64,000 nt of DNA from positions 3,747 through 67,746 of the forward strand of contig PBGP02000005.1 of assembly GCA_002720095.2 (NCBI GenBank), read 5' to 3'. The notes beneath the pieces were generated by a model. It had not been told where the DNA came from and did no database searches. It saw only the letters and a program-made list of their open reading frames with translations. Shown here one piece after another: positions 60,792-61,943 of this stretch (the first letter of the stretch is position 1; every line of letters starts with the position of its first letter). The translations under genes were made by a program, and so were the position numbers. This DNA comes from Methanobacteriota archaeon. Its GTDB lineage: Archaea > Thermoplasmatota > Poseidoniia > Poseidoniales > Poseidoniaceae.

Positions 60792-61943
60792 ATGAATTCT
60801 AAGAGATGTTGTGATAATTCTAATGTAGGCTTGGGGGCGATGATTATATTCATCGCATCTGGAATAGTAGCTTGTATAATTTTGGCAACAATGATTAGAA
60901 TGGTAGAAGTAACAGCGCAAACTCCTGAAGCAATTGCGAAATTGGCGACTAGAGAAGTTGCTGATAAATTAATAGTTCATGAAATATATGTCTGGGACGG
61001 ATTCGACAATTATGGTGTAATTTTAGAATTATCCCCAGCAAGTGAATCAAAACCAGTTGAAGATTTATACTGGATACTAAAATGCACAGATGCAAATGAT
61101 GATTATTATTCTTTTTGGGGAGATTTTACGAATGATAAGTTACAAGCTGGGGGGGTACACGAATTCACTCCAAAACAGCAAGTTATTCCTGGTTTGAAAG
61201 CCGAGTTCTTTAGTAATGAGGGAATGAATTCACCAGGTCTTGTTGATTTAACCAATAGATTGCCAGATATTGTAACAGTTGAAGATGACATAAATTATCC
61301 AAAAATTGGAGGTGCTTGGACTACAGATCGTTTAGGTAATTTACCATGGGTAAATGAATTTTCATTAAGAGCAACAGGATACATTGAAATCACTATCCCT
61401 GGGTTATACACATTCGAAGTGAATGCTGATGATGGATATCAATTATGGGTGGATGGACAAGATATTGTAGATGGAATTAATAGTGCAAATAATGGAGATA
61501 TAGAATTGGATGTTGGAAAAATACCTATTCATATCGAATATAACGAAAACTTCGGTGTTGCGGGACTCGAATTATGGTGGGAAAGTGCTCCTGATCAAGC
61601 GAATATAGGACGCCAAATTGTTCCAGCAGAAAGACTATTTCATGATGCTAACATGGTAGATGAATTTATCGGAGTTGGTGATGGAAGTGCCGCAGGGACA
61701 TCCATTGGAAATCCATTTGCCTCTGAAAACTGGGTCTCTGTTGAAAAATTGGAACCTGGAGTTATTTACGAAATAAGTGTTGATCAAGACATCACTGGAG
61801 GACCACTAACAACTAAATGTGGTCCTTCAGAAATGGTTAACGTTGACACAAAAGTAGAACTAATTTTTATCGTAGCTAGAGGTGATTCCACCTCAAACGA
61901 ATTTAGAGTTCATAGTGATCTTGCAGGAACAAAACTAGTATGA
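60792..61943 (+). CDS. archaellin-like protein with inserted PA14 domain
   Basis: N-terminal VGLGAMIIFIASGIVACIILATMI archaellin helix; residues about 132-283 IPGLKAEFFSNEG...GYIEITIPGLYTFEVNADDGYQLWVDGQDIVDG...PIHIEYNENFGVAGLELWWES...VPAERLF are PA14-like. Confidence 0.78.
   Translation: MNSKRCCDNSNVGLGAMIIFIASGIVACIILATMIRMVEVTAQTPEAIAKLATREVADKLIVHEIYVWDGFDNYGVILELSPASESKPVEDLYWILKCTDANDDYYSFWGDFTNDKLQAGGVHEFTPKQQVIPGLKAEFFSNEGMNSPGLVDLTNRLPDIVTVEDDINYPKIGGAWTTDRLGNLPWVNEFSLRATGYIEITIPGLYTFEVNADDGYQLWVDGQDIVDGINSANNGDIELDVGKIPIHIEYNENFGVAGLELWWESAPDQANIGRQIVPAERLFHDANMVDEFIGVGDGSAAGTSIGNPFASENWVSVEKLEPGVIYEISVDQDITGGPLTTKCGPSEMVNVDTKVELIFIVARGDSTSNEFRVHSDLAGTKLV

Follow-up and report, generated by a model that had tools for sequence, protein, structure and literature searches.

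The archaellum of Methanocaldococcus villosus (7ofq; PMC8821640) pairs two different archaellins, ArlB1 and ArlB2, built of a tail and a head, and ArlB2 carries a short glycosylated loop that faces outward, K131-A137. Oxyplasma meridianum ArlB (8rh5; PMC12448462) has an extra outward piece in its head, a short 28-residue spike with no known domain. In a bacterial flagellin, flagellinolysin (PMC5595980), a metallopeptidase domain is inserted in the exposed part of the motility-filament subunit, and its function has been proven by experiment. Among sugar-binding PA14 domains, MhPA14 (6m8m) and MpPA14 (6x7j) are lectins of giant secreted RTX adhesins of marine bacteria, and MpPA14 binds diatoms (PMC6650083, PMC8092209). 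In these domains Ca2+ is bound by a pair of adjacent aspartates, the DcisD motif, and by a second loop, which supplies two backbone oxygens and a side chain (PMC6650083, PMC8092209, PMC6308950). We found no archaellin with a PA14 or lectin domain in the open-access papers searched.

Here we analyse a gene from a MAG of Poseidoniales (marine group II; 1.8 Mb, 82% complete), whose product appears to combine these elements. All positions refer to the window, the whole stretch of 64,000 nucleotides that was analysed, unless another locus is named. Like the archaellins of M. villosus, the protein has a recognisable tail and head, is encoded beside a second, different archaellin, and seems to carry its insertion at the outward loop of ArlB2; unlike them, it would display a whole PA14 domain at that place, and both genes are orphans outside the arl operon. 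It shares an extra piece in the head with the archaellin of O. meridianum, which belongs to the same phylum. The PA14 fold and the calcium motif resemble those of the RTX adhesin lectins, but sequence identity is low and the domain sits in a putative filament subunit. Flagellinolysin offers the same arrangement of a domain inserted in a motility-filament subunit, although both the filament and the domain are unrelated.

A pair of orphan archaellin genes

The gene (60792..61943, + strand) is an intact ORF, from ATG to TGA, encoding 383 aa. It lies outside the arl operon, 9 bp after the end of a plain orphan archaellin of 219 aa (60123..60782, + strand; Arch_flagellin 4.8e-11, above the Pfam cut-off), and its start is preceded by a GAGG motif. 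The short gap and this motif suggest that the two genes are probably on one transcript. Directly upstream of the pair, and in the same place in 3 other species of the genus, is a gene for a 318-aa protein (59139-60095, + strand) that lacks any family match; our impression, and it is only that, is of a glycosyltransferase-type fold in its C-terminal part. A further orphan archaellin-like protein of 233 aa is encoded on another contig (L012 2198-2899, contig C7, - strand), where the adjoining gene has calcium-rich thrombospondin-type repeats.

Both ends of the protein resemble archaellins

The earlier note had described an archaellin-type N-terminal helix and a C-terminal segment, both paralleling the neighbouring paralogue, and archaellin-type N and C parts are supported. 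The protein begins with a short leader (residues 1-10, 60792..60821), whose cleavage before N11 is deduced by aligning the mature archaellin of M. villosus (PMC8821640). It is followed by the helical tail (residues 11-58, 60822..60965; Pfam, 7ofq and family alignments) and by the first part of the head, including Cys98 (residues 59-130, 60966..61181; 7ofq and family alignments). The second part of the head, with Cys343, comprises residues 317-383 and the stop (61740..61943; family alignments); all these features are on the + strand. Arch_flagellin (PF01917) matches residues 12-67 with E=6.5e-5 and 23.8 bits, just below the cut-off of 29.5, and a PA14-less relative from another genus (L039) clears that cut-off (1.7e-12). 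In the search against solved structures, residues 12-130 match the M. villosus archaellin 7ofq (E=0.003). The leader is followed by a hydrophobic helix of G-x-G type, VGLGAMIIFIA, which aligns with the major archaellins and 7ofq. The C-terminal part resembles the other archaellins of the genome in its PG-x-x-Y motif, in a cysteine and in the final strand. Landmarks flanking the insert and the 7ofq alignment up to residue 130 point to a beta-rich head homologous to those of archaellins. The profile search matched archaellin models and no pilin model.

Two features depart from this picture. The SG hinge between tail and head, which typifies archaellins (PMC8821640), is absent: the protein has ADK at this position, where the family's major archaellins have GGK or SGK. 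The residue preceding the inferred cleavage site is Ser. Judged from the sequence, the hinge and this residue fit a specialised minor subunit better than the main propeller protein. Cys98 and Cys343 are invariant in the 4 members of the genus, and a disulphide between them might close the head below the insert. A solved archaellin of 463 aa (9v96), for which the literature search found no describing paper, matches only the tail and the first part of the head.

A PA14 domain inserted in the head

The insert itself spans residues ~131-283 (~61182..61640, + strand; Pfam, PDB matches and fold model), almost exactly where the earlier note had placed a PA14 domain (~61185-61640). PA14 (PF07691) matches residues 134-229 with E=1.2e-11 and 45.1 bits (cut-off 24), and among solved structures the insert matches the PA14 modules found in RsgI anti-sigma factors (5e-17). 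For the orthologue in a sister species, the insert gives stronger matches to RsgI-type PA14 (1e-27) and also retrieves the marine adhesin lectin MhPA14 (5e-5). Modelling with AlphaFold gave a divided answer. The PA14 part alone produced a moderate model (pLDDT 64, pTM 0.66); Foldseek matched it to PA14 domains, most of which bind sugar. The whole protein, modelled from 4 sequences, came out poorly (pLDDT 43, pTM 0.37), with Foldseek matches to PA14 domains and weak ones to archaellum filaments; the fold of the chimera therefore rests on the sequence evidence and on these weak matches.

The site of the insert was located by aligning PA14-less archaellins to the protein with the insert removed. 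Relatives without PA14, of ~199 aa, are present in another genus (L039, L042), and the landmarks around the insert are kept, W-x-L-x-C-T-D before it and P-G-x-x-Y, the cysteine and the final strand after it. These two observations mark the PA14 domain as an insertion between head strands. Residue 130 aligns with position 121 of chain B of 7ofq, which is residue 133 of the precursor. We read this chain as ArlB2 from its greater length, and the insertion site would then map to the outward 'glycosylation loop' of ArlB2, at K131-A137 (PMC8821640). The outward head spike in an archaellin of the same phylum (PMC12448462) suggests that insertions in the head are tolerated.

A conserved calcium motif

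Alignment with MhPA14 (PMC6650083) through the orthologue places Asp213-Asp214 (61428..61433, + strand) on its pair of aspartates, as a DcisD-type Ca2+ motif called from the sequence, where the cis peptide is invisible. The second Ca2+/sugar loop would be E252-N253-F-G255-V-A257 (61545..61562, + strand; alignment; PMC6308950), in a register (E252/N253-x-G255) uncertain by one residue. D213, D214, E252, N253 and G255 are invariant in the 4 members of the genus, whose PA14 domains are overall 42-79% identical. The presence and conservation of the Asp-Asp motif make glycan binding by the insert plausible. The divergent copy of a second genus (G033) has N-D in place of Asp-Asp and has thus lost one Asp of the calcium motif, which makes sugar binding by that copy doubtful.

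The fusion is conserved and rare

Searching 174 genomes of the family, we found the fusion at full length in MAGs of 3 further species of the genus (50-57% identical); a second genus contributes a single divergent copy (G033, 31% identical). The order of the two genes, plain archaellin then PA14-archaellin, is the same in the 4 species of the first genus. Once these five copies are excluded, the longest of the archaellin-tail matches listed for the order (324 genomes) is an ORF of 304 aa, and a phylum-wide profile search of 346 genomes showed no further fusion among the matches listed; these MAGs are incomplete, and absence from the lists is not proof. An alignment scan of GTDB contigs returned three named relatives, a single-sequence scan of the same contigs gave no match, and viral contigs had no such archaellin. 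UBA596, a relative carrying the gene, is classified in Poseidoniales. In summary, the fusion is conserved and rare.

By sequence, the closest PA14 domains are those of giant secreted proteins of Poseidoniales, which are not filament subunits; within the genus, the closest is that of a subtilase with LamG and PA14 (45-46% identical). The source genome yielded no other PA14 gene. In the tree, the PA14 domains of the archaellins of the genus form one group. A first tree placed them beside the PA14s of the giant subtilases of the genus (95/96), but a tree with outgroups did not recover this placement and the test did not reject it (p-AU 0.14-0.26), and we claim no donor. Proteins of 376-384 aa in the sister family (L078 1196-2347, L079 1184-2320) were set aside: their PA14 domain comes after several membrane helices, and they resemble multi-pass membrane proteins, not archaellins. 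They appear to be another way to display PA14 on the cell.

Filament machinery in the genome

The earlier note had suggested looking for arl genes elsewhere in the genome, and they are present. One contig (C9) encodes two major archaellins, followed by matches to ArlG, ArlH, ArlI and ArlJ, and has a candidate prepilin peptidase just under the cut-off. In two genera, a ~400-aa protein with a weak NEW3-like match is encoded directly upstream of the major archaellins (L009 2963-4165, L038 1-813), a position that may make it part of the arl locus in Poseidoniales. The genome has two further loci with an ATPase and a platform protein of type IV filaments, on contigs C4 and C5. The one on C5 (L107 4097-6692) encodes a Tad-like ATPase and two platform proteins. 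It is flanked on one side by a DNA photolyase-like gene and on the other by two small unknown genes, and we saw no pilin in its vicinity. We found no CheF or MCP genes in the source genome, a MAG that is 82% complete. This is in line with the proposal of Rinke and colleagues that the archaellum of Poseidoniales is adhesive, which was based on missing chemotaxis genes and on the enrichment of flaJ in large particles (PMC6461757).

A candidate adhesive archaellin

Our preferred reading, to which we give a probability of about 0.5, is that the protein is a minor archaellin whose PA14 domain acts as a Ca2+-dependent lectin on the outside of an adhesive archaellum. Extrapolating from known archaellins and PA14 lectins to a protein of which the architecture and the conserved motif are observed, we propose the following steps. 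The prepilin peptidase would remove the short leader, and ArlI and ArlJ would add the subunit, possibly with the neighbouring archaellin, to the archaellum. The tail would pack into the filament core while the head loop holds PA14 outward, where it could bind vicinal diols of glycans through Ca2+ and let the filament act as a fibre that adheres to particles or cells coated with sugar. Incorporation into the filament and sugar binding are what we infer for this protein; that its target would be algal polysaccharide is a suggestion of the earlier note. The matches to both archaellins and PA14, the insertion at an outward loop with the flanking landmarks kept, the invariance of Asp-Asp and of the second loop, the conserved gene order, the Arl machinery, the failure to find CheF or MCP and the predominance of sugar-binding domains among the Foldseek matches of the PA14 model all argue for this reading. 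It is weakened by the position outside the arl operon, the ADK hinge and the Ser before the cleavage site, by the two other type IV filament loci and the loss of an Asp in G033, and by the poor model of the whole protein and the incompleteness of the MAG in which chemotaxis genes were sought.

Two other readings are possible but improbable. The products of the two orphan genes might alternate in a filament of their own that the Arl machinery assembles; studded with lectin domains, it would serve as an adhesive fibre for particle attachment instead of as a propeller. With a similarly low probability, the protein might be a structural minor archaellin, with PA14 at the base, hook or tip of the filament, where it would contact sister cells or the glycosylated envelope of the cell itself and not environmental particles. 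Minor archaellins make hook-like regions in several archaea (PMC8821640), and the orphan position and altered hinge of our gene fit a minor subunit, but the literature searched has no hook archaellin with a PA14-like domain.

It is somewhat less probable still that PA14 is part of the filament and binds no sugar, acting as a bulky spacer, a stiffener or a shield, for instance against viruses or grazers. PA14 domains are not all lectins, and the copy without an intact Asp-Asp motif would suit this role, but the invariance of D213, D214, N253 and G255 in 4 species, in a domain that is 42-79% identical overall, argues against it. Slightly less likely again, the protein could be a pilin that belongs to one of the cell's other type IV filament machines. 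The loci on C4 and C5 keep this rival alive; it is the weaker one because archaellin models and solved archaellin structures match both tail and head, and because the C4 locus has its own small neighbouring genes without the archaellin tail motif. Finally, every genome concerned is a MAG, but an assembly or frame artefact fusing two genes is refuted by the separate copies, since the same full-length fusion and gene order occur in 4 different MAGs, 3 of them also named public contigs.

Poseidoniales are abundant archaea of the surface ocean, with no cultured members. The PA14-archaellin gives them a concrete adhesin candidate, and makes the proposal of an adhesive archaellum in this order testable with one recombinant domain. 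As an adhesive archaellin, it would be to archaea what flagellinolysin is to bacteria: a subunit of a motility filament whose exposed part has gained a working domain.
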